This document shows positions 5,139-38,488 of a stretch of DNA of 38,830 bases, in pieces. This DNA is from Acidobacteria subdivision 13 bacterium RH2 MAG17b (GTDB lineage Bacteria > Acidobacteriota > Terriglobia > UBA7540). Every line of letters starts with the position of its first letter. Position 1 is the first letter of the stretch. The translations under genes and the position numbers were made by a program. Under the pieces are notes generated by a model. It had not been told where the DNA came from. It saw only the letters and a list, made by a program, of their open reading frames with translations, and searched no databases. The stretch covers positions 1 through 38,830 of the forward strand of contig NFUN01000116.1 in assembly GCA_002197525.1 (NCBI GenBank), written 5' to 3'.

Positions 5139-7421
5139 TTACCCCTTAGAGACTTCCGCCAGGGCTTGCCGCGCCGCGTCCGCGTCCTTAAATTTTGGAT
5201 CGATTTGAAGGGCACGCTCAAACTCCTCTTTCGCCCTGGTCCGGTCCCCAAGTTTTTGGTAAGTGAGACCCAGGTGATAGTGGATAGAGGGGTCATTGGG
5301 CGCCTTTTGAAGAGCATCCTTGAGTAGCCCGGCGGCGAGCTGATAGAGTCCGTTGTGATAGTAAGCGCAGCCCAGCGTATCCGCTGCCGCGGAAGATTCC
5401 GGCATGGCGCGGCGCGCCGCCTGGGCGAGGGAAAGCGCAACGTCGGGATTCTGATTGTGTTGGATCATGAGATAGGCCAAGTTGTTTTGCGCCGGCGCAA
5501 AGTCTGGTTGTATTTGGAGCACTTTCTGGTATAGACCCTGAGCTTTCTGCCAATCTCCCTGGCTATCATCCAACTCGGCGAGCGCGATATAGGGCAGGAT
5601 ATCCTGAGGGTTCACTTGAATGGCTTGTTGGTAGGTTGAGGCGGCCTGGCCGATCGCGCCGAGCAAGGTTTGCACCTGGCCGAGGAGCAAATAAGCCGCC
5701 ATGTTGTTTTTGTCGAGCCGAACCGCTTGCGCCGCCGCCGCTTCCGCCTTCGGAAGATCGTGGGTGAACCCATACACCTTTGCCAGCGTCAAGTAAAACG
5801 GACTGCTCGCCGGGGCCTGAGCGATCTGCTGGTTGACGCGCTGAATTGCCAAGTCGGGCTTTTTCTCGCTAAGGTCGATGTTAACCAAGCCGTCCAAGGC
5901 TGGACTATAGCCGGGGCTCTTTGAGAGAGCCTGTTCATAGAGCTTCTGCGCTTCCGTGAACTTCTTTTGGCCAAAACGCAGGTCTCCAAGGGCGGCATAA
6001 CCGATAGGGCTTTGCGGCGCTACTTGCATGGCCTTTTGGAGATCGGCTTCAGCGGCGGCGGCGTCTTTTTGCTGCAAATCTACCTTCGCGTGCAGCACGT
6101 AGCCGTCGGGAGAGCCGGGGAGAATGCGCATTATTTGTTCAGAGGATTCCTTCAAAAGGTCCACATCGCCCTTACGAATTGCTACGCCAGCCAGAGCTCG
6201 CTGCGCTTGCACCATGTTTGGATTCAGGCGCGCCGCTTCACGCCACTGGCTTTCCGCCTGATCTATCTGGCCTGTCATGTTAAACGCAACACCCAGATAG
6301 TAGAGCGCGGGGGCGTTTTGCGGTTCGCCCTTCAAAACACCCTGTAGCAAATTGATCGCATCTTGCGGCTTCTGCTGTCCTTCGTCGATCTCGGCCTGAA
6401 GAATCAAGCCGCCCGAATCCTTGGTGTTGCTCTTGAGTATTCCAGAAACCACCTTCGCCGCCTGGTTGAAATGGTGATTGAGAATCAGAAGCTGGGCATA
6501 ACCCCGCTGCACGACCACATCTTTCGGATGCTGTTGGGTCAGCGAAGCGTACTCGGCGACAGCCTTATCCATTTGACCCGTCTCAAAGTAAAACTGAGCG
6601 AGCATGCGATAGGCCGAGGGGTTGTCCGGCATGACCTTCTTCGCTTCCACTAGGACTTGCTCCGCCTGAGGCTGTTTGTTTTCTATAAGATATAGCCTGG
6701 CGAGTGCAGCACTAGGCAAAGGATTGTTCGGGTCGAGCGTGACCGCCTTTTGGAATTGCTGCTCCGCGTCTGGCCACCGGCGTTGTTGCATGTAAAAGTT
6801 TCCGAGGGCCATCAGGGCCGAAATAGATTTTGGGTCAAGTTGCACAGCCTTTTTGAAACTTTCTTCGGCTTGATCTACCTTCTTCGCATCGAGCTGAAGA
6901 ACACCGAGATTCAGGTAGGTTTGGGGCCGGTCTGGCGAAAGCTGCAGCGCATCCTGCATTTCTTGAAGAGAAGCTTGAATGTTGGAAAGGCCAGCGTTGG
7001 AGTTGGCCATCAAAACCACCGCTTCGACGTTTTTCGAATCCTTTTGCATCACGAGCTTGGCCTGGGCCTGAGCTCGCTTGAAGTGACGGCTGGCTAGGAA
7101 CAGATTTCCTAAATCGAGCTGCGCCTTGAGATCATCAGGACGCAACTGTACAGCCTGGGATAATTCCTGATACGCCGGTTTCCAATATCCCATCCTCAAA
7201 TAACACCGGGCCAGTTGGTAATGCGCCTCTTCATATTTGGGATCGATGCGAGTGGCGTTGGTGAATTGAATCGCGGCGTCCTGGAATTCACCTTTGGCGT
7301 AGTATCGCGCGCCACTTTGAAAGAACTCGCGCTTTTGCGCATTGGGATCGCGATGGCATCCGGTCACACACGCCACCAGGAATAGCGAGGCGAGAAGGAT
7401 GAACAGACGCTGCTTGCTCAT
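5139..7421 (-). CDS. TPR-repeat lipoprotein of exosortase/EPS locus (PrsT-like)
   Basis: Start MSKQRLFILLASLFLVACVTGCHRDP at 7421 with GGAG SD; lipobox; many consecutive TPR units (e.g. YLNLGVLQLDAKKVDQAEESFKKAVQLDPKS). The upstream extension of the ORF is judged non-coding. Confidence 0.85.
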   Translation of the reverse strand: MSKQRLFILLASLFLVACVTGCHRDPNAQKREFFQSGARYYAKGEFQDAAIQFTNATRIDPKYEEAHYQLARCYLRMGYWKPAYQELSQAVQLRPDDLKAQLDLGNLFLASRHFKRAQAQAKLVMQKDSKNVEAVVLMANSNAGLSNIQASLQEMQDALQLSPDRPQTYLNLGVLQLDAKKVDQAEESFKKAVQLDPKSISALMALGNFYMQQRRWPDAEQQFQKAVTLDPNNPLPSAALARLYLIENKQPQAEQVLVEAKKVMPDNPSAYRMLAQFYFETGQMDKAVAEYASLTQQHPKDVVVQRGYAQLLILNHHFNQAAKVVSGILKSNTKDSGGLILQAEIDEGQQKPQDAINLLQGVLKGEPQNAPALYYLGVAFNMTGQIDQAESQWREAARLNPNMVQAQRALAGVAIRKGDVDLLKESSEQIMRILPGSPDGYVLHAKVDLQQKDAAAAEADLQKAMQVAPQSPIGYAALGDLRFGQKKFTEAQKLYEQALSKSPGYSPALDGLVNIDLSEKKPDLAIQRVNQQIAQAPASSPFYLTLAKVYGFTHDLPKAEAAAAQAVRLDKNNMAAYLLLGQVQTLLGAIGQAASTYQQAIQVNPQDILPYIALAELDDSQGDWQKAQGLYQKVLQIQPDFAPAQNNLAYLMIQHNQNPDVALSLAQAARRAMPESSAAADTLGCAYYHNGLYQLAAGLLKDALQKAPNDPSIHYHLGLTYQKLGDRTRAKEEFERALQIDPKFKDADAARQALAEVSKG

Positions 7422-7451
7422 GGTTGATCTCCTTACTTCAAGACCGGACCG

Positions 7452-7500
7452 TGCACGGTTATCCAACCGTGCATCGGAGGAGGTGAAACCTCTGCGATGC
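7452..7500 (-). promoter_or_regulatory. Structured 5' leader of the TPR lipoprotein gene (two overlapping hairpins)
   Basis: TGCACGGTT-ATCC-AACCGTGCA (7452-7473) and GCATCG(7471-7476)...GAGGT-GAA-ACCTC(7480-7492)...CGATGC(7495-7500); they share bases 7471-7473. Confidence 0.5.
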
Positions 7501-7622
7501 GCCGGGATGTGAGCTTCAATTTGAAACAACTCGCACAGGCTTCCGGCGTAGCCACGGCCTAAACCAATCTTAACCCCTGAAGAATCATCGGCCAAACTGC
7601 CTCAACCGCCAGGCAGGGAGTC

Positions 7623-8276
7623 TTACTGCGGAATATATTTCCCTAGCAGCGGCAAGATCAGACGGGTAAAGGTCAAAGCCCTCTGTTTTCCGCTTGCGAG
7701 AGCTTCGCCATCGGCCACCGGGGTGATCACGCGAACCAAAGCACCGTCCGTGCGGTTCATTCGCAGAGCATCGGCCAGCAGGTAAAACCGCGCCCAATAC
7801 TCGCTAGCCACGGTGCGACCGTGGGATTGGAACCAGTAAAGAACAACTTCGCGGCTCAATCCCAGTTGAAGCACGTAGTAGTTGGCGCGGAGTATCTTCC
7901 CGCCGCCCCAAGGAACTGTAATGACCGAGGATTGCACAGGCGTCCAGCCCGAGCCTGGAAGGCAATGCTTCGGCGAGTGGATCGTGTCTCCGGTCCTTTG
8001 GCGCGGGAAATAAGCCAGGAAGAGGTCCACGTCCGGCCTTCCGGGATCACGATAGAGGCGCTCGATGAACTCGCCCGGCCCGAGAATAGCCAAGTCGCCA
8101 GAAGGGATGGTCAGCGCCGTGCCATCCCATGGTCCGATTTGCGATGGGAAAGACGCCAATTCTTGATGCGGAGGCAATACCTCAGCCTGAACGTAGCGGT
8201 GCAAGAAAAGCGCTGCCACCAACAGGAGGAGCACCGGGAAAAGGCCCCTAATCCACGATTTTCCGGATTCTCTCAC
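7623..8276 (-). CDS. EpsI family protein (exosortase-associated)
   Basis: N-terminal TM, PGSGW followed by ...YYVLQLGLSREVVLYWFQSHGRTVASEYWARFYLLADALRMNRTDGALVRV; overlaps the stop of exosortase. Confidence 0.88.
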   Translation of the reverse strand: MRESGKSWIRGLFPVLLLLVAALFLHRYVQAEVLPPHQELASFPSQIGPWDGTALTIPSGDLAILGPGEFIERLYRDPGRPDVDLFLAYFPRQRTGDTIHSPKHCLPGSGWTPVQSSVITVPWGGGKILRANYYVLQLGLSREVVLYWFQSHGRTVASEYWARFYLLADALRMNRTDGALVRVITPVADGEALASGKQRALTFTRLILPLLGKYIPQ

Positions 8277-9187
8277 GATCTAAACCCTCTTATTGCACGT
8301 GCAGTTCCCCGAAAAATTGCGTGAACCGCAAACAGCGCCATCAAAGAAAGAATGAAGATCACCCAGCCAGAAAACTCATGAAAAAAGCCCTGCGCCTTGC
8401 TGGGATCCCAGTACATGCCCGTCAACCCCGTGCCCATAATCCGGAGTCCATTAGCGAGCACGGCGATAGGGACCGACGACGCTACCAGTAAGATTCGAAT
8501 GACCAAGCTGCTCTCTAAGAGATATCCATAAATGATGGCCAGCGTCCCGAGTGAGACCAGAGATCGGATGCCGCTGCAAGCTTCGACCACCTCGAGAGAC
8601 ATATTGGGCAGTTGGATGACGTTGCCGTCCTGCAAGACGGGCACCCCTGAGAATCGAAGAAACCACGTAGCCAAGTCCGAAGCCAGAAATTGAAGCGGAA
8701 TCGTGACCAGGTTCATAATCAAGGTTGGAGGAGGAACCATGAGAAACAGAAACGCCCAGGGGAAAAGAACCGCCTTAAAAAAATCCCACCCTTGAAAGTA
8801 AACCACCATCCCCGCAATCAGAAAGACCAGTGAAACGCGGGACACAAACAGCACCGCTGCGAGCACACCAAAGATCAGCAGCGCTAACGCCCCAGCCATG
8901 ATCAGCAGACCCCACCATGACGGCCGCGCTTTTATCGCCGCCAGCCGCTTCCGGTTTCTCCAGATCAGGAAGGCGGAAAAGGCCGGAACGAAAAAACCGT
9001 GGGAGAAATTAGGATCCGTCCACCATTGTTCGACCAGTCTATAGAGAATGCCGGCGTATAGGTATACGAGTAATCCTGCTAAGGCGGCTCCAGGCCATAA
9101 TATCCAAGTGGCAGACCTCGAACTCTCCAGTTCAAGGCCTTCCGCCACGCTTCGTTCGTGCGCGTTATTCATTACCAGTAATTCCAT
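8273..9187 (-). CDS. Exosortase (EpsH/Xrt family)
   Basis: Multi-TM; conserved Cys-Arg-His signature: EACSGIRSL ... PIAVLANGLRI ... FFHEFSGWVIF. Start could be ATG 9187 or the in-frame ATG 9172. Confidence 0.92.
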   Translation of the reverse strand: MELLVMNNAHERSVAEGLELESSRSATWILWPGAALAGLLVYLYAGILYRLVEQWWTDPNFSHGFFVPAFSAFLIWRNRKRLAAIKARPSWWGLLIMAGALALLIFGVLAAVLFVSRVSLVFLIAGMVVYFQGWDFFKAVLFPWAFLFLMVPPPTLIMNLVTIPLQFLASDLATWFLRFSGVPVLQDGNVIQLPNMSLEVVEACSGIRSLVSLGTLAIIYGYLLESSLVIRILLVASSVPIAVLANGLRIMGTGLTGMYWDPSKAQGFFHEFSGWVIFILSLMALFAVHAIFRGTARAIRGFRS

Positions 9188-9223
9188 TCCGCTTCATATA
9201 CAAGCTGGCGGAGGAATAGGGAT

Positions 9224-9239
9224 TGCAATTGGCTTTCCA
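9224..9239 (-). promoter_or_regulatory. Candidate sigma-54 (-24/-12) promoter for the exosortase arm
   Basis: Minus strand TGGAAAGCCAATTGCA: GG-N10-GC, 9/11 of TGGCACG-N4-TTGC; predicted start about 26 nt before the exosortase ATG. Confidence 0.6.
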
Positions 9240-9624
9240 TAGTTCAACAGGATTAAGGGTCATTTCAAGAATCGGCGGGATTATCAGAGCACGGCAAGTC
9301 GGGGAATAAGCGAGAATTTGCTGATCCAGATACATAGAACCCTTATTTGCTTGCACCAGATGCTCGTTTTGCGAACGGCACAAAGAAAGCAGGTGAAACT
9401 AGCCCGCTGTACCTTAAACTTCCAGCGGAGCCAAAGATAACACGTCAGACACCCGCTTACTAGTCCTAAAGAATGCCCCGAGAGTGAAAAAAATTACCTA
9501 ATTAGGGAAATTATTCGGCATATCTTAACACGGCTTTTCTGTGTAAATCACGCCATAGTATTGTATGCTTTTGGAAATGGGTATGTTATCAATACTTCCG
9601 GTCGAACGCGAAACCGGCCAGAGA

Positions 9625-9641
9625 ATGGCAGGCGGCTTGCC
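9625..9641 (+). promoter_or_regulatory. Candidate sigma-54 (-24/-12) promoter for the regulator/EPS arm
   Basis: aTGGCAGGCGGCTTGCc: GG-N10-GC, 10/11 of TGGCACG-N4-TTGC; predicted start near 9652, upstream of ATG 9702 with AGGGAG SD. Confidence 0.68.
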
Positions 9642-9701
9642 TAACTTTGGATGCATTCAGCAATTAGTGAGCCGTGTCAGGGTGGCCAAGGGAGTTTAAG
9701 C

Positions 9702-10667
9702 ATGCTGGTAAAGATTCCTCCACAAACTGCCGATCAACTTGTTGCTGAATCAAGTCAGCGAGGTCTTTTGGCGCCTTGCATCAGTCCTGCAATTCGGGCC
9801 ATCGAATCGATCATTGCCGACCTTGTGGCTACTGAAATCCCAGTTCTTCTAATCGGTGAAACTGGGACAGGCAAAGAAGTTGCTGCTCTAAGGATTCATC
9901 AGCTTTCGAGACGGCGCGTTGGCCCGTTCATCAAACTGCGATGTTCTGGCCTGAAGATTGAGGATTTCAATCAGCTTCCGATGCCGGGCAATGAAGCCAA
10001 TGCTTTCGACCGGAGCACGGTTTTCCTTGATGAGATAGGCGATCTGAATCCGGCCAGCCAAGCGCGCCTTCTCGAAGCGTTTGTTGGGGTGAATGGCGGC
10101 CCGGAAAGGTTTCAGTTAGGCGCCTGCGTCATCTCCTCGACCAGCCAGAACCTGGAAGGAGCCATGCAAACCGGCCGATTCCGGAATGCCTTGTACTATC
10201 GCCTGAGCGGGGTGTCTCTCCGGCTGCCTCCGCTCCGGGAGCGCACGGAGGATATTCTTCCGCTGGCGAATTTTTTCCTGGATAAATATTCCAGAGCTTT
10301 CGGGAGGCCGCGCCCGCAGTTAAGCACTGCGACTAGCCGCTGGATTCAGGCCTATGCTTGGCCGGGCAATGTCCGCGAGCTTGAGAACACGATGAAGAGA
10401 CTAGTCGCATTGGGCGACGAAGGCTTGGCTCTCAACAGCATGAGTGAAGCTCGCACTGTGGTGTTTGAACAGGCTGTTAACGGCGGAGGATGTTCCTTGA
10501 AGCAGGCGGCTCGAGCTGCGTCGCGAGAAGCCGAAAAGGAGTTGATTCTAAAAGCTTTATCTCGAACCCGATGGAATCGAAAACGCGCTGCCGAGGATCT
10601 CCGTATCAGTTACAAAGCCCTGCTTTATAAGTTGAAGCAGATCGGTGTGGAAAATCCGAATTCATGA
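9702..10667 (+). CDS. AAA+ sigma-54-type transcriptional regulator lacking GAFTGA loop, with Fis HTH
   Basis: GETGTGKE Walker A, VFLDEIGDL Walker B, GRFRNALYYRLSGVSLRLPPLRER, WPGNVRELENTMKR, C-terminal RTRWNRKRAAEDLRISYKALLYKLKQ. No receiver domain. SD AGGGAG precedes ATG 9702. Confidence 0.88.
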   Translation: MLVKIPPQTADQLVAESSQRGLLAPCISPAIRAIESIIADLVATEIPVLLIGETGTGKEVAALRIHQLSRRRVGPFIKLRCSGLKIEDFNQLPMPGNEANAFDRSTVFLDEIGDLNPASQARLLEAFVGVNGGPERFQLGACVISSTSQNLEGAMQTGRFRNALYYRLSGVSLRLPPLRERTEDILPLANFFLDKYSRAFGRPRPQLSTATSRWIQAYAWPGNVRELENTMKRLVALGDEGLALNSMSEARTVVFEQAVNGGGCSLKQAARAASREAEKELILKALSRTRWNRKRAAEDLRISYKALLYKLKQIGVENPNS

Positions 10668-10690
10668 TTTGCTTTTCAGGAGTTGGAGAT

Positions 10691-11326
10691 ATGAAGCAAA
10701 AATCTAAGGCGTATATGATGGCGGTATGGTTGGGAGCTTTGATCGTGGCAGCAATGCCCGCCGCGGGCGGGCAGAACCGCCGTGGCGGCCAGCAAAGCGG
10801 TTCCCACTCGTCAACCCAGTCACCCACGATTCCAGCAAGCCCGGACTATGTGATCCATCCCGATGATGTGCTCGATGTCACCGTGTGGAAGCAACCCGAC
10901 CTTTCGTTTCGGGGTCTTCCTGTCCGCCCCGACGGCCGGATTTCCCTGCCCCTGGTTAACGACATTCAGGCGTCAGGTCTGACAGCCATGCAGCTTTCCG
11001 CTGCCATAACCCAAAAGCTCAAAAAGTACCTTGTAGATCCTCAGGTTACGGTGGTGGTCGCGACGGTTAACAGCCAGCGCTACTATATGCTGGGGGAAGT
11101 ACCGCGTCCCGGAGTTTTCCCGCTGCTCCCAGGAATGACCGCCCTCCAAGCCCTTTCTGCTGCCGGGGGGTTCACTGAATTCGCCAATTCGAACAAGATA
11201 TACATCCTGCGCAAGGTCAATGGGAAGCAGGTGAAGCTCCCCTTCAATTACAAAGCCGTGCTTAGCGGCAAAGACCTTCAGGAGAATATTCAACTAAAGC
11301 CGAACGACACTATAGTTGTGCCGTAA
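10691..11326 (+). CDS. Polysaccharide biosynthesis/export protein (Wza/BexD-like, SLBB)
   Basis: Signal peptide; YVIHPDDVLDVTVWKQPDLSFRGLPVRPDGRISLPLVNDIQASGLT; YMLGEVPRPGVFPLLPGMTALQALSAAGGFTEFA. Confidence 0.92.
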   Translation: MKQKSKAYMMAVWLGALIVAAMPAAGGQNRRGGQQSGSHSSTQSPTIPASPDYVIHPDDVLDVTVWKQPDLSFRGLPVRPDGRISLPLVNDIQASGLTAMQLSAAITQKLKKYLVDPQVTVVVATVNSQRYYMLGEVPRPGVFPLLPGMTALQALSAAGGFTEFANSNKIYILRKVNGKQVKLPFNYKAVLSGKDLQENIQLKPNDTIVVP

Positions 11327-12867: not shown

Positions 12868-14418
12868 ATGCTTTTGGGTCGACAACTCAATTTTGATGAT
12901 TATGCCGCCATTCTGCGCCGCCGTCTTTGGGTGATCCTCATTCCGGCGCTGTTAGGACCGTTCGTCGCTTACCTGATTGCCAGGCACCTGCGGCCTCGCT
13001 ACACCTCAAACAGTCTGATTTTGATCGAGCAGCCAAAGGTGCCCGCTAGCTTTGTTCCGTCGGTTGTGGGGAATGACTTGACCTCCAGACTCGCTAATAT
13101 GGAAGAACAGATTTTGAGCCGCACGCGCCTTGAGCCTCTGATCGACCGCTACGGGCTCTACCGGTCTGATATTCATCGGGTTTCCATAGAGGAATTGGTG
13201 GCGCGGATGCGGCAGGATATCTCGGTGACGCCTGTGAGCTTCGCGAATGGAGGAACAGATCAGAACAAGAGCGTACCAGGATTTCGGATAAGCTTCACGG
13301 CGAGCAATCCCCAAAGCGCCCAGGCCGTTTGCTCCGAGATTACTTCGATGTTCGTGGACGAAAACTTGCGGCTTCGAGAGTCGCGGGCCGAAGGCACGGC
13401 GACTTTCATTGCGATGGAACTGCAGTTGGCGAAGCAAAAGCTGGATGCGGAAGACGCCAGACTTGCGGGATTCAAGCAGCGGTACTTTGGCTCTCTTCCG
13501 GATCAAGAGCAGTCAACGGTCCGGATGCTCGGAACACTTTCGGCGCAATTGAACAGCCTAACCGACGCCCTCGGACGTTATCAGGACGACAGAACTTATA
13601 CAGAATCTCTTTTGACTCAACAGGTCGCTGCGTGGAAAGCTTCGCAAACAGGTTCTAGCCCGCAGACTTTACAACAAGAACTTGCTACCCTCGAAAACCG
13701 TCTGGCAACCCTTCGCACTCAGTACACGGAGGATTATCCGGATGTCGTCAGCGCTAAGCGGGACATTGCCAACATGAAAAATAAGATAGCCCAGCAACAG
13801 GCTGTGGACGCAGCTAATAAGACGAAGGCTCCGGTCCAGTCAGCGAACATCCTCAGCGAGCCGCCCGAGATCGGGCGGCTTCACGCTCAGTTGGGTTCTA
13901 TCGATGCAGCGATGAAGGAGAGCAAGCGCGAGCAAGCGCGGGTTCGAAGCCAGATCAACTATTATGAGGCAAAGTTGAAGCTGACGCCCACCGTTGAGCA
14001 GCAGTACAAGGACATTACTCGCAATTATCAAACGGCGCTGGCATTCTATAATAGCCTTCTCGCTAAAGAAAATGAGTCTGAGATGTCGACCAACCTTGAG
14101 AAGCGCCAAGAGGGTGAGCAATTTCAGGTTCTTGATCCTGCGGATTTGCCCCAGAAGCCTTCATTTCCCGATAAGTTACGGTTTGCGGCAGGAGGCCTTG
14201 CCGTTGGGCTTCTGCTGGGAGCTGGCATGGCGTTGCTGTTTGAGATGAAGGATAAGGCGCTCAGAGACGACCGCGACGTCGAGTTTTTTCTGGGAGTGCC
14301 TACGCTCGCTCTCGTGCCTTCAATGGATGATGGGCGCGGGGGGCAGTCAGATTTACTGGCGAAGCGGCACAAACTGGAGGCAGCCGTCAGTAAGCTACTC
14401 CCGTCGGGGCGAAAGTAG
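12868..14418 (+). CDS. Polysaccharide chain-length determinant (Wzz/GNVR-like)
   Basis: N-terminal DDYAAILRRRLWVILIPALLGPFVAYLIA TM, central coiled coil, C-terminal PxxP-TM (DLPQKPSFPDKLRFAAGGLAVGLLLGAGMALLFE). Confidence 0.9.
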   Translation: MLLGRQLNFDDYAAILRRRLWVILIPALLGPFVAYLIARHLRPRYTSNSLILIEQPKVPASFVPSVVGNDLTSRLANMEEQILSRTRLEPLIDRYGLYRSDIHRVSIEELVARMRQDISVTPVSFANGGTDQNKSVPGFRISFTASNPQSAQAVCSEITSMFVDENLRLRESRAEGTATFIAMELQLAKQKLDAEDARLAGFKQRYFGSLPDQEQSTVRMLGTLSAQLNSLTDALGRYQDDRTYTESLLTQQVAAWKASQTGSSPQTLQQELATLENRLATLRTQYTEDYPDVVSAKRDIANMKNKIAQQQAVDAANKTKAPVQSANILSEPPEIGRLHAQLGSIDAAMKESKREQARVRSQINYYEAKLKLTPTVEQQYKDITRNYQTALAFYNSLLAKENESEMSTNLEKRQEGEQFQVLDPADLPQKPSFPDKLRFAAGGLAVGLLLGAGMALLFEMKDKALRDDRDVEFFLGVPTLALVPSMDDGRGGQSDLLAKRHKLEAAVSKLLPSGRK

Positions 14419-14423
14419 GCTGC

Positions 14424-15344
14424 ATGTACAAGAAGTTCTTCGGGTTGCGCGAAAACCCGTTTAATGTCAGTCCGGATCCGCGTTACCTTTTCGTTACGCC
14501 TCACACCGAGGAGGCCCTGTCGTGCTTGACGCACGGTATTCAAAGGCGCAAGGGTTTTGTGTTGCTGACCGGAGAGGTGGGTACTGGCAAAACAACTCTC
14601 ATTAACAAGCTTCTCGAGTGGTTGCACCGGGAGGGACATGCGACGGCGTTCATTTTCAACCCGCGCCTCAGTGAAGACCAGTTCTTTGATTTCATGATGG
14701 CTGATTTTGGAATAGCTTGCGATACCCGGTCGAAGAGCCAAGTGTTGTTGCGGCTAAACCAATGGCTTTTAGAACGCTATCGGGCTGGTGAGGCAGCGGT
14801 TCTTATTGTAGACGAAGCGCAGGATCTGTCCCTTAGCCTCCTCGAAGAAATTCGCTTGCTTACGAACTTCGAAACTTACAGCGAAAAACTTCTGCAAATC
14901 GTCCTGTCTGGCCAGCCCGAGTTGGATGTGAAGCTGAGGCAGCCTGAGCTTCGCCAGCTTCGCCAACGCATCACGCTGCGGTCGAAGACGTATCCGCTGA
15001 CATCAGCGGAAACTGCGGGATACATCAACAGCCGCTTGCGCATTGCCGGAAGCGACGGCCAGTTGATCTTTACACCGGAAGCCATCGTGGCGATTTATCA
15101 ATACTCCCGGGGTATTCCGCGCATCGTTAATGTACTGTGCGAACACGCTCTTATTGGCGCCTTTGCCGATCAACGCAGGCCGGTCACCGCCGAGATCGTT
15201 CAGGGGGTGGCCGAAGAGTTCGAGTTGACTCCGGCCGACGCAGGTTCGGCAGAAAACCTCCAACCTGCAGGACAAGGATCCGCAAGCATGGAGGCATCCC
15301 GGAACTGGGCCACGCTTATGGACCGGTTGCGCAGGCCTGAATAG
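14424..15344 (+). CDS. ExeA/GspA-like AAA ATPase (exosortase-locus-associated type)
   Basis: MYKKFFGLRENPFNVSPDPRYLF; Walker A LTGEVGTGKTTL; Walker B VLIVDEAQDLS. Confidence 0.92.
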   Translation: MYKKFFGLRENPFNVSPDPRYLFVTPHTEEALSCLTHGIQRRKGFVLLTGEVGTGKTTLINKLLEWLHREGHATAFIFNPRLSEDQFFDFMMADFGIACDTRSKSQVLLRLNQWLLERYRAGEAAVLIVDEAQDLSLSLLEEIRLLTNFETYSEKLLQIVLSGQPELDVKLRQPELRQLRQRITLRSKTYPLTSAETAGYINSRLRIAGSDGQLIFTPEAIVAIYQYSRGIPRIVNVLCEHALIGAFADQRRPVTAEIVQGVAEEFELTPADAGSAENLQPAGQGSASMEASRNWATLMDRLRRPE

Positions 15345-15372
15345 CATGGGGCCGGATTAGGAAGGGAAGTTT

Positions 15373-16317
15373 ATGAGTCGAATTCACGACGCCTTAAGAA
15401 AGGCGGAGCAGGACCGCGCAGCAGATCTTCCCCCAGGGACGGGAGGGGATGACGCTCAACCTGTAGATTCTCTGTTCCAGAAAACCTTGCCGACCGCCCC
15501 GGAGCCAGACCTCGATAGTAGGAGTTCAGCGGCAGAGCCCGTTCGTGGGCTGGAGCGCATGGACGGGGTGACTCTTGAGGGATGGATGGCAGAGTGTCCG
15601 CAGTCGCCGTGGAAACCAGACCCTCATATGGTTCTGTTCGTGAACCCTGGAGATGCACAAACCGGCGTGGAAGAATTCAGGACGCTCCGGACACAGCTCA
15701 CCCAGATGCGCGAGAAGCTGCCTCTACAAACGTTGCTGGTTACGAGCGCCCTCGCAGGTGAAGGTAAAACCTTTGTCTCCGCTAACCTGGCACAAGCGTT
15801 TGTGCAACAGCACGGCCGCCGCGTACTGCTGATTGACGCCGACCTGAGGATTTCGAACCTTCACGCGTTATTGGGTGCTGCGCGGAGCCCAGGCCTGGCT
15901 GATTTTCTGTGCGGTGAGACCGATGCGCCCCGTATTTTTCAACGCGGGGTCCCGGGGAACCTCTTCTTTATTCCTGGGGGAAAATCGGTTTCCAACCCCG
16001 TGGAGCTGATTGGGAACGGCCGGCTGAAAGGCCTTCTGCACCGCGTCGCGCCACTGTTTGATTGGATAGTAATCGATTCACCCCCATGCGTTCCTCTCTC
16101 CGATGCCAGTCTGCTTGCGGACCTTACTGATGGGGTACTGATGGTAGTGCACTCCGGAAAGACTCCGTTTGATATCGCACAAAAAGCGAGCCAAATGTTT
16201 CGTGACCGGCATCTGCTAGGTGTCGTGTTGAATCAGGTAAGGCCTCAAGCCCCTTACAGCGCCTACTATTACAGGCCGGCGGAAGAGCATATTGCTAAAA
16301 ACGGTTCCAGGGGATAA
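15373..16317 (+). CDS. CpsD/CapB-like tyrosine-kinase family protein
   Basis: TSALAGEGKTFVSANLAQAF, VLLIDADLR, DWIVIDSPP; C-terminal Tyr cluster APYSAYYYRP. Confidence 0.9.
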   Translation: MSRIHDALRKAEQDRAADLPPGTGGDDAQPVDSLFQKTLPTAPEPDLDSRSSAAEPVRGLERMDGVTLEGWMAECPQSPWKPDPHMVLFVNPGDAQTGVEEFRTLRTQLTQMREKLPLQTLLVTSALAGEGKTFVSANLAQAFVQQHGRRVLLIDADLRISNLHALLGAARSPGLADFLCGETDAPRIFQRGVPGNLFFIPGGKSVSNPVELIGNGRLKGLLHRVAPLFDWIVIDSPPCVPLSDASLLADLTDGVLMVVHSGKTPFDIAQKASQMFRDRHLLGVVLNQVRPQAPYSAYYYRPAEEHIAKNGSRG

Positions 16318-16323
16318 CCATCT

Positions 16324-17700
16324 GTGGTTCGCCTGTTTAACGTTTATTACCCCATCCGGACTCTCGTCTTGGTTCTTGGCGAGACAGTCATTGTCTGCTC
16401 GTCTTTCATCGTGGCGGCTTTCATACGGCTGGGCCAAGATTCAGCGCTCGTTCTGGAATATGAAAACGGCCTGTATAAGGTCTTGGCGATCACAGGAATC
16501 GCATTACTCTGCTTCTACTATTTTGACCTTTACGACACGCAGCGTGTTCCCTCAGGCGGCGAGACTTTTTTCCGCATTTTTATCGCCTTGGGCATCCTGT
16601 CGCTGGTGTTGGCGGCGATAGAAGCTTTCATACCCGGCTTTCTGCTTGGCAATGACGTCTTCCTCTTAGGCCTTTTGATTTTGACGCTTTCCCTAATCGG
16701 CTGGCGGTGGCTTTATGGATGGCTTCTTTCGCAGCCGTTCCTACGCGAAAGAGTTTATGTGCTCGGCTCGGGCGACCGGGCCCAAAGGCTCGTGGAGGCG
16801 CTGCAAAAACGGCCAGAGCTTGGTCTCGAAGTTGTAGGATGGGGAGGAGCAGCCAGTGATGGATCGCTGACGCGTGAGCAGCTAGCCTCACAGTTGATGT
16901 CTCTTCGGGAGAAAAACGCGGTGGACCACGTCATCGTGGCTATGAGCGATGGCCGGGGTAAAATGCCAGTCAGAGAACTGCTCGATCTGCGGCTTTCCGG
17001 CGTGAAGATTGATGACGCCACCGGTCTGCTTGAAAAGATCTCGGGCAAAATCGAAGTTCATGAACTCCATCCGAGCCGGCTGATTTTCTCGGAAGGATTT
17101 CGACTGAATTACTTATTCCTTGCGCTGCGCCGGCTGATTTCTTTCGCGGTTGCACTCATTGGCTTGGCGCTGTGTCTGCCGCTGATTCCCTTCATCGCAG
17201 TGGCGGTTAAAATGAATTCGCCCGGACCGGTGCTCTATCGCCAAAAGCGGGTAGGACAGCGAGGGCGCGTTTTTACTTGTTATAAGTTTCGAACTATGCG
17301 AGCCGATGCTGAAGCGGGCAGTGGGGCGACGTGGGCTACCGATGGCGATCCTCGAATTACGGCGGTGGGCCGCATTCTGCGCTACCTTCGTCTCGATGAG
17401 ATTCCTCAGATGTGGAACGTGCTCAAGGGTGACATGGGGTTTATTGGCCCACGGCCCGAACGACCCGAGTTCGTAGAGCAACTCAGCCAACAGATTCCTT
17501 ACTACAATCTTCGCCACATCATCCGTCCGGGCATTACAGGTTGGGCTCAAATCCGTTACAAGTATGGGAATACGGTCGAAGACGCCCGCCAAAAGTTGCA
17601 ATACGACCTTTTTTATATCAAGAACATGTCGATCGGTTTGGACTTCTGGATATTCGTGCAAACGATTAAGGTGATACTCCTCGGACGGGGAGCGCAATGA
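16324..17700 (+). CDS. Undecaprenyl-phosphate sugar phosphotransferase (polyprenyl glycosylphosphotransferase)
   Basis: GTG start; N-terminal TMs, C-terminal bacterial sugar transferase: NSPGPVLYRQKRVGQRGRVFTCYKFRTMRADAE ... DEIPQMWNVLKGDMGFIGPRPERPEFV. Confidence 0.95.
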   Translation: MVRLFNVYYPIRTLVLVLGETVIVCSSFIVAAFIRLGQDSALVLEYENGLYKVLAITGIALLCFYYFDLYDTQRVPSGGETFFRIFIALGILSLVLAAIEAFIPGFLLGNDVFLLGLLILTLSLIGWRWLYGWLLSQPFLRERVYVLGSGDRAQRLVEALQKRPELGLEVVGWGGAASDGSLTREQLASQLMSLREKNAVDHVIVAMSDGRGKMPVRELLDLRLSGVKIDDATGLLEKISGKIEVHELHPSRLIFSEGFRLNYLFLALRRLISFAVALIGLALCLPLIPFIAVAVKMNSPGPVLYRQKRVGQRGRVFTCYKFRTMRADAEAGSGATWATDGDPRITAVGRILRYLRLDEIPQMWNVLKGDMGFIGPRPERPEFVEQLSQQIPYYNLRHIIRPGITGWAQIRYKYGNTVEDARQKLQYDLFYIKNMSIGLDFWIFVQTIKVILLGRGAQ

Positions 17701-37549: not shown

Positions 37550-38488
37550 ATGGAAATCTTGATTGCTGAGGACGACCCTGTTTCACGGCGCATCTTGCAA
37601 GCTCATTTGGCTAAATGGGGATACGAGGTTGTGAGCGCTTGCGACGGGGAGGAAGCCTGGAAGGTCCTCCAGCAGCCGGATTCGCCTAAGCTGGCCGTTC
37701 TCGACTGGATGATGCCGGCGATGGATGGCGTCGAAGTGATTCGCAAGCTGCGCGAGCAGCCCGGGCAATCTTACGTCTATGTCCTCTTGCTCACAGCCAA
37801 GGGCCAAAAAGAAGACCTCGTTGCTGGGCTGGATGCGGGAGCCGACGATTATGTAACCAAACCTTTCGACGCGCAAGAGCTGCAAGCGCGGATTCGAACC
37901 GGAAGACGCATCCTCGATCTGCAGGACCAGCTCATCGCCGCCCGTGAAGCGTTGCGCGAGGAAGCTACGCACGATCCACTGACGGGAGTCTGGAATCGCG
38001 CTGGAATTCTCGACATCCTGAAAAGGGAGTGCGCCCGCGTGCACCGGACCGGCGGGTCGGTGGGGGGGGGAATGGCTGACCTCGATCATTTCAAACGCGT
38101 CAACGACACACATGGCCACTTGGCGGGCGACGAGGTGCTCCGGGAGGTGGCGCACCGCATGCATGGGTCGGTGCGGGCTTATGATTCGATTGGCCGCTAT
38201 GGGGGCGAGGAATTTGTGATTGTTCTGCCGGACTGCCATGCCGACGCAGCCTTCCACCAGGCTGAGAGGATCCGCTACGTCGTTAGCGAGCAGCCGGTGA
38301 ACGCAACGGGCGATTCACTTCCGGTCACCCTCAGTTTGGGCGTTGCCGCCAGCGATCAAACTGGATGCTCGGACTATGGAAGGCTTCTTCAGTCGGCGGA
38401 TTCCACGCTTTACCGGGCCAAGGCTGCGGGCCGCAACCGGGCTTTACTGGCTGCGCCGGATGCAGATCCGATTCTAGCCTCGCGTTGA
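37550..38488 (+). CDS. Response-regulator diguanylate cyclase (REC-GGDEF)
   Basis: REC ILIAEDDPVSRRIL...LDWMMPAMDG...DDYVTKPF; GGDEF domain DPLTGVWNRAG...ADLDHFKRVNDTHGHLAGDEVL...RAYDSIGRYGGEEFVIV with RxxD I-site. Confidence 0.95.
   Translation: MEILIAEDDPVSRRILQAHLAKWGYEVVSACDGEEAWKVLQQPDSPKLAVLDWMMPAMDGVEVIRKLREQPGQSYVYVLLLTAKGQKEDLVAGLDAGADDYVTKPFDAQELQARIRTGRRILDLQDQLIAAREALREEATHDPLTGVWNRAGILDILKRECARVHRTGGSVGGGMADLDHFKRVNDTHGHLAGDEVLREVAHRMHGSVRAYDSIGRYGGEEFVIVLPDCHADAAFHQAERIRYVVSEQPVNATGDSLPVTLSLGVAASDQTGCSDYGRLLQSADSTLYRAKAAGRNRALLAAPDADPILASR

Follow-up and report, generated by a model that had tools for sequence, protein, structure and literature searches.

At positions 9702-10667 (+) of the window, as we call the whole 38,830-nucleotide stretch of DNA that was analysed, lies the gene for a stand-alone AAA+/Fis-HTH regulator of 321 aa without the L1/GAFTGA loop. 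Judging from sequence, this protein of a soil acidobacterium most likely restrains or tunes, from within the operon itself, the production of slime (EPS), and the reading that we favour, with a probability of roughly 45%, is that it acts as a non-activating enhancer-binding modulator providing negative feedback on EPS output. The features seen directly are the loss of L1 and of catalytic residues, a single origin of the family, its synteny, a promoter and an enhancer at fixed spacing, a shared recognition helix, and selection.

The loop-less regulator and its orthologs

The open reading frame was assigned from a split Sigma54_activat match, AAA_lid_14, HTH_8 and its orthologs. The Sigma54_activat profile (PF00158) gave 86.7 bits against a cut-off of 20.2, in two pieces, which in the genome search covered profile positions 5-62 and 92-167; because of this split, nothing in the protein corresponds to the L1 portion of the profile. 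Where L1/GAFTGA would be, alignment and structure model place the short stretch NQLPMPGNEANAFDRST (residues 90-106, 9969-10019, +). The AlphaFold model (mean pLDDT 83) showed an AAA+ fold with a short low-confidence loop at residues ~91-105 and no L1 hairpin; its nearest PDB structures were NtrX, ZraR, NtrC1 and PspF, and the solved VpsR structure 7v2b was among the matches of the protein. The split profile match, the alignment and the model thus agree with the initial annotation, which had described the GAFTGA segment as replaced by a short stretch, and a cryptic L1 loop was ruled out by the last two. The C-terminal Fis-type HTH (HTH_8, PF02954) scored 41.5 bits against a cut-off of 22. The receiver family, which had also been reported as missing, was not found by domain search, and ~27 residues precede the AAA+ domain. 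The scores for PrsR (TIGR02915, 178.4 bits) and TyrR (NF008085, 146.7 bits) remained under the curated cut-offs of 502.6 and 576, respectively.

Walker A, Walker B, the arginine-finger region and the Fis HTH had all been regarded as intact, which held except in the finger region. Walker A (GETGTGKE, residues 52-59, 9855-9878, +) and Walker B (VFLDE, residues 107-111, 10020-10034, +) are kept, as is the HTH (residues 289-314, 10566-10643, +) with its recognition helix ISYKALLYKLKQ. The finger region is less well preserved than claimed, since the R-hand motif RxDxxxR (for its definition see PMC3419264) reads RNALYYR (residues 161-167, 10182-10202, +), with Asp replaced by Ala and both Arg kept. 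The sensor-I region ISSTSQN (residues 144-150, 10131-10151, +) is altered, as had been noticed, its Asn being Ser in the window protein, and the switch Asn is replaced by Arg. Within the catalytic set of switch Asn, Walker B DE, sensor-I Asn and RxDxxxR, Walker B alone is intact.

Loop-less orthologs, more than 60 in number and from ~60 genomes of Terriglobia (Acidobacteriota), came from a scan of GTDB genomes and a scan of 299 genomes of this class, and 65 distinct proteins were analysed; strong matches (E <= 1e-92) were confined to Terriglobia in a 396-genome sample drawn across the phylum. L1/GAFTGA was absent in all 65, which excludes an error of sequencing or assembly, such as the deletion error that might have undone the initial annotation; a pseudogene is likewise ruled out by these 65 distinct proteins and by dN/dS well below 1. 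The Walker A Lys was found in 65/65 orthologs, Walker B DE in 33/65, the switch Asn in 14/65 and the sensor-I Asn in 3/65 (lost in 62/65). Both Arg of the finger region were kept in at least 60 of the 65; RxDxxxR was intact in 23/65, in comparison to 68/68 GAFTGA relatives, and its Asp was lost in 37/65. The catalytic set as a whole, made up of L1, switch Asn, Walker B, sensor-I Asn and R-hand, was complete in none of the 65 loop-less proteins and in 54/68 of the GAFTGA relatives. L2 was also short across the family, with a median of 25 residues from Walker B to sensor I as compared with 29, and the HTH was almost invariant. In close pairs of loop-less proteins, dN/dS was 0.07-0.21 for the AAA core and 0-0.06 for the HTH, and this purifying selection indicates that the protein is maintained; the AAA core of intact partners gave 0.03-0.07, so the loop-less core evolves somewhat faster. 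We also noticed that Walker B was lost entirely in L114, L123, L137, L113, L145 and L026, the last three of which lack the second finger Arg too. One genome carries a second, degenerate homologue (L021:20065-20886), in which Walker B and the finger region are lost and which adjoins separate chain-length and kinase genes.

In a rooted tree built without the L1 columns (support given as bootstrap/SH-aLRT), the loop-less proteins formed one clade (100/99). Their sister group, L144, L148 and L149, belongs to another Terriglobia family, keeps GAFTGA (joint support 93/82) and also stands by wza in the loci examined. Next outward came solo GAFTGA proteins (92/85) and then the PrsR-related proteins with a receiver domain. 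This topology is most simply read as a single loss of L1. The earlier proposal of a repurposed regulator dedicated to the EPS system is well supported by the one clade, the fixed wza position and the intact sister group at that position.

The EPS locus and its control region

The loop-less gene was located at the head of an exosortase/EPS locus, immediately 5' of wza in nearly all contexts examined, and, across families, it is usually divergent from the exosortase, EpsI and PrsT genes. In the window, the divergent genes encode an exosortase (EpsH family, 8273-9187, -; PF09721, TIGR02602), an EpsI-family protein (7623-8276, -; TIGR02914) and a PrsT-like TPR protein (5139-7595, -; TIGR02917 over its cut-off). 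On the other side, the ORF of a wza-like export protein (10664-11326, +; PF02563, with TIGR03027 under its cut-off) overlaps the stop codon of the regulator, and the genes for a chain-length determinant, an ATPase, a tyrosine kinase and an EpsB-type glycosyltransferase (12868-17700, +; TIGR03007, TIGR03015, TIGR03018, TIGR03013) are part of an XrtA-type EPS locus. The search for orthologs next to exosortases, which had been suggested as a check, returned the same exosortase/EPS locus in ~60 Terriglobia genomes. An Rfam search of the window found no family. The same contig also encodes a receiver + GGEEF protein (37550-38488), a probable diguanylate cyclase, which would matter should c-di-GMP be a ligand of the regulator, as it is of VpsR and FleQ.

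A sigma-54 -24/-12 promoter of the regulator-wza operon, TGGCAGGCGGCTTGCC, was predicted at 9626-9641 (+; score 12.1), at a position conserved in orthologs, by a matrix that was written after the general -24/-12 consensus and was unfitted to these data. Forward promoters with a score of at least 10 were present in 47 of the 65 orthologs against 3.7 in shuffles, and in most orthologs the site falls at one position, ~55-75 nt ahead of the start codon. In the window, this promoter departs from TGGCAC-N5-TTGCW at two positions, and across the whole window a loose sigma-54 pattern was at chance by count, with no excess; the weight of this predicted site comes only from its position and conservation. 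Another predicted sigma-54 promoter, TGGAAAGCCAATTGCA (9224-9239, -; score about 12.4), faces the exosortase gene, and such reverse promoters were found in about a third of the orthologs.

The candidate enhancer (UAS) is the palindrome AGAGTGAAAAAAATTACCTAAT (9481-9502, unstranded; score 14.5), the core of which (9484-9498) was recovered in a whole-genome scan; a weaker UAS-like site lies 20 bp further downstream (9501-9522, unstranded) and scored 7.9, under the strict threshold. An unsupervised dyad search found GGAA-N6-TTCC in 21 of 60 upstream regions, with 0.3 expected, and a palindrome matrix, fitted on these same data, marked 57/60. The enhancer centre was located 135 bp (median) upstream of the -24 element (IQR 133-137, n=49). 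Since the shuffle controls ignore the shared ancestry of orthologs and so overstate significance, we put the weight on the constancy of this spacing and on how other genes differ. Tandem sites 20-21 bp apart exceeded the control, yet they were a minority (15% downstream). In the own genome, the UAS pattern gave 21 matches as compared with 9 in the reversed control, and because this excess is mild, single genome-wide matches are leads only.

The sigma-54 regulon and its probable PrsR-like activator

The own genome has one sigma-54 gene (rpoN) and about ten GAFTGA-type bEBPs, and the sigma-54 DNA-binding domain was found in 55/59 other genomes. Near a PEP-CTERM gene of the own genome there is a pair of a histidine kinase and a receiver-AAA-HTH protein (C81:45854-47212), the latter one of these bEBPs, whose recognition helix ISYKALLYKIRQ is little different from the ISYKALLYKLKQ of the loop-less protein; as its 338 bits to PrsR fall under the cut-off of 502.6, we call this activator PrsR-like. 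An enhancer of the same type as that of the window was located upstream of most of the 26 solo GAFTGA genes and of 0/18 genes for receiver-domain (PrsR-like) activators. A cascade from PrsR to sigma-54 is likely, because the enhancer precedes most solo activators and no PrsR-like response regulators, and the loop-less protein appears to stand inside this sigma-54 regulon, sharing the recognition helix of its activators. In the own genome, the enhancer and a sigma-54 promoter are also paired with an ORF that ends in a PEP-CTERM-like tail (L175:1498-1772). Such enhancer/sigma-54 control of PEP-CTERM genes was predicted for Proteobacteria by Haft et al. (2006), with another motif and spacing (PMC1569441), and RpoN dependence was shown for an Aquincola PEP-CTERM gene (PMC9850573). 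The same combination occurs near another PEP-CTERM-like gene of the own genome (L147:10546-10723), with the promoter >600 nt from the gene.

A PrsR-like activator was present in 55 of the 60 genomes carrying the loop-less gene. The closest PrsR-like orthologs (E <= 1e-110) were found in 55/60 genomes with the gene in comparison to 33/51 without it, and the matches in the latter are nearly all weaker; this co-distribution was rejected as evidence, being confounded by phylogeny. Among the solo activators, the GAFTGA-bearing ones of one family, f6 (L105:10985-12169, L110:10987-12183, L111:7765-9003, L120:15521-16642, L136:13911-15032, L138:4727-5842, L143:7219-8298), have DG in place of DE in Walker B, so the intact-loop partner there may be a poor ATPase. 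The solo activator L127:15317-16459 has GSFTDA for GAFTGA, possibly a second, milder loss of the motif, and an own-genome response regulator, L004 (G000:C11:5109-5609), has GAFTDA.

Possible roles and related systems

In the favoured reading, the loop-less protein would descend from an enhancer-binding activator of the PrsR kind that regulated its own gene, and would itself be inert towards sigma-54. A PrsK/PrsR-type two-component system would turn on the sigma-54 promoter upstream of regulator-wza-EPS, and the first gene product would still bind the enhancer palindromes that serve its own EPS operon, and probably also those of PEP-CTERM genes, without the ability to open sigma-54 promoters. 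By occupying the same enhancers or joining the ring of the activator, it would limit further activation, which would amount to negative feedback on EPS output. The protein is unable to contact sigma-54 via L1, and remodelling of sigma-54 is very probably impossible for it (PMC7175178); its binding to the enhancer, the part of PrsR as activator, the oligomer state and the net negative sign are what we infer from the sequences. The corresponding history, in which a positively autoregulated sigma-54 activator at the head of an EPS operon underwent a single loss of its loop and thereafter persisted throughout Terriglobia in the role of a dedicated anti-activator at shared enhancers, turning positive into negative feedback, is put forward a shade more tentatively than the reading itself. 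Against the favoured reading, the enhancer could serve the PrsR-like or a solo activator alone, and a pure competitor needs no AAA+ domain, yet the Walker A Lys is invariant and the AAA core is under selection.

These last features fit a co-activator subunit, which we place second and regard as unlikely. The loop-less protein would form mixed rings with the intact PrsR-like or solo activator, with a positive or tuning effect; under the same doubt, it may supply DNA binding and nucleotide-dependent contacts and the partner the GAFTGA loops. Besides the ATP-binding Lys, the selected AAA core and the two finger Arg, the intact partner in most genomes, a solo GAFTGA activator often in the same locus and the paralogous rings VnfA1-VnfA3 and HrpR-HrpS (PMC9542535) argue for it. 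However, RxDxxxR is kept only in a minority of the family, the Asp being Ala in the window protein, whereas all GAFTGA relatives have it, and within one genome the AAA domains of the loop-less protein and its partners are no more than ~30-48% identical. The kept trans-acting arginine fingers were considered as proof of mixed rings, an argument weakened by the frequent loss of the R-hand Asp.

Less probable again, and third in our order, is a sigma-70 effector like VpsR or Rhodobacter capsulatus NtrC, which would bind ATP and DNA and recruit or block sigma-70 polymerase at EPS promoters. L1-less TyrR, DhaR, HupR, VpsR and the NtrC of R. capsulatus and Caulobacter act at such promoters (PMC3162934, PMC10274813), ATP binding without hydrolysis suffices in some L1-less relatives, and VpsR controls EPS genes. 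However, the conserved promoter before the loop-less gene is of the sigma-54 type, its enhancer lies as far away as is usual for sigma-54 systems, and 9100-10750 holds one sigma-70-like site where 1.4 are expected by chance. Among the roles listed in the initial annotation, the TyrR-like sigma-70 one found no promoter above chance in the control region, whereas a repressor or partner of a canonical PrsR-like protein fits best, because of the conserved sigma-54 promoter and enhancer and of a PrsR-like activator with a near-identical helix in the same genome. It is improbable that the loop-less protein is a mere relic, decaying and of little regulatory importance, and that none but the PrsR-like and solo activators use the enhancers: the faster AAA core and the losses that successively affect Walker B, the switch Asn and sensor I would suit such a relic, but the protein is kept class-wide at one position, under purifying selection throughout and with an almost invariant HTH.

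GAFTGA-less bEBPs are already known, including at EPS genes (VpsR); the literature searched does not describe a class-wide loop-less family that, like this one, appears to belong to a sigma-54 regulon and to have an enhancer of its own. Known relatives that lack GAFTGA work at sigma-70 promoters; the loop-less protein is encoded at the start of a conserved sigma-54 operon and nearly shares the recognition helix of the intact activators, so that its action as a sigma-54 anti-activator or as a ring subunit without the loop can be put to a direct test. The control regions also yield a concrete code of enhancer and promoter for the control of exosortase-linked EPS genes in Terriglobia, no description of which was found in the literature searched.

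Proteobacterial PrsR (TIGR02915) resembles the loop-less protein in its kindred AAA+ and Fis-HTH domains, its exosortase/EPS context and its layout of enhancer and -24/-12 promoter (PMC1569441), and differs from it by having a receiver domain and GAFTGA. The Proteobacterial enhancer ends in TTTACA and lies ~63 nt from motif 2 (PMC1569441), unlike the GGGAAA/TTTCCC-type palindrome of Terriglobia, whose centre is 135 bp away from -24. In Vibrio cholerae, VpsR is likewise a bEBP without GAFTGA linked to an EPS locus, and its structure 7v2b matches; however, VpsR carries a domain N-terminal to AAA+, is a c-di-GMP-binding protein and works with sigma-70, whereas the loop-less protein has no N-terminal domain and its operon promoter is sigma-54-type. 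The NtrC proteins of R. capsulatus and Caulobacter share with it an L1 deletion in a bEBP lineage with intact relatives (PMC10274813), but they keep the receiver domain, which is absent here, and act at sigma-70 promoters, an action that is unsupported for the loop-less protein. The solo activators L144, L148 and L149 are the sister group at the same wza position, with the same kind of enhancer upstream; they differ in their intact L1 and are therefore presumably still able to activate sigma-54.
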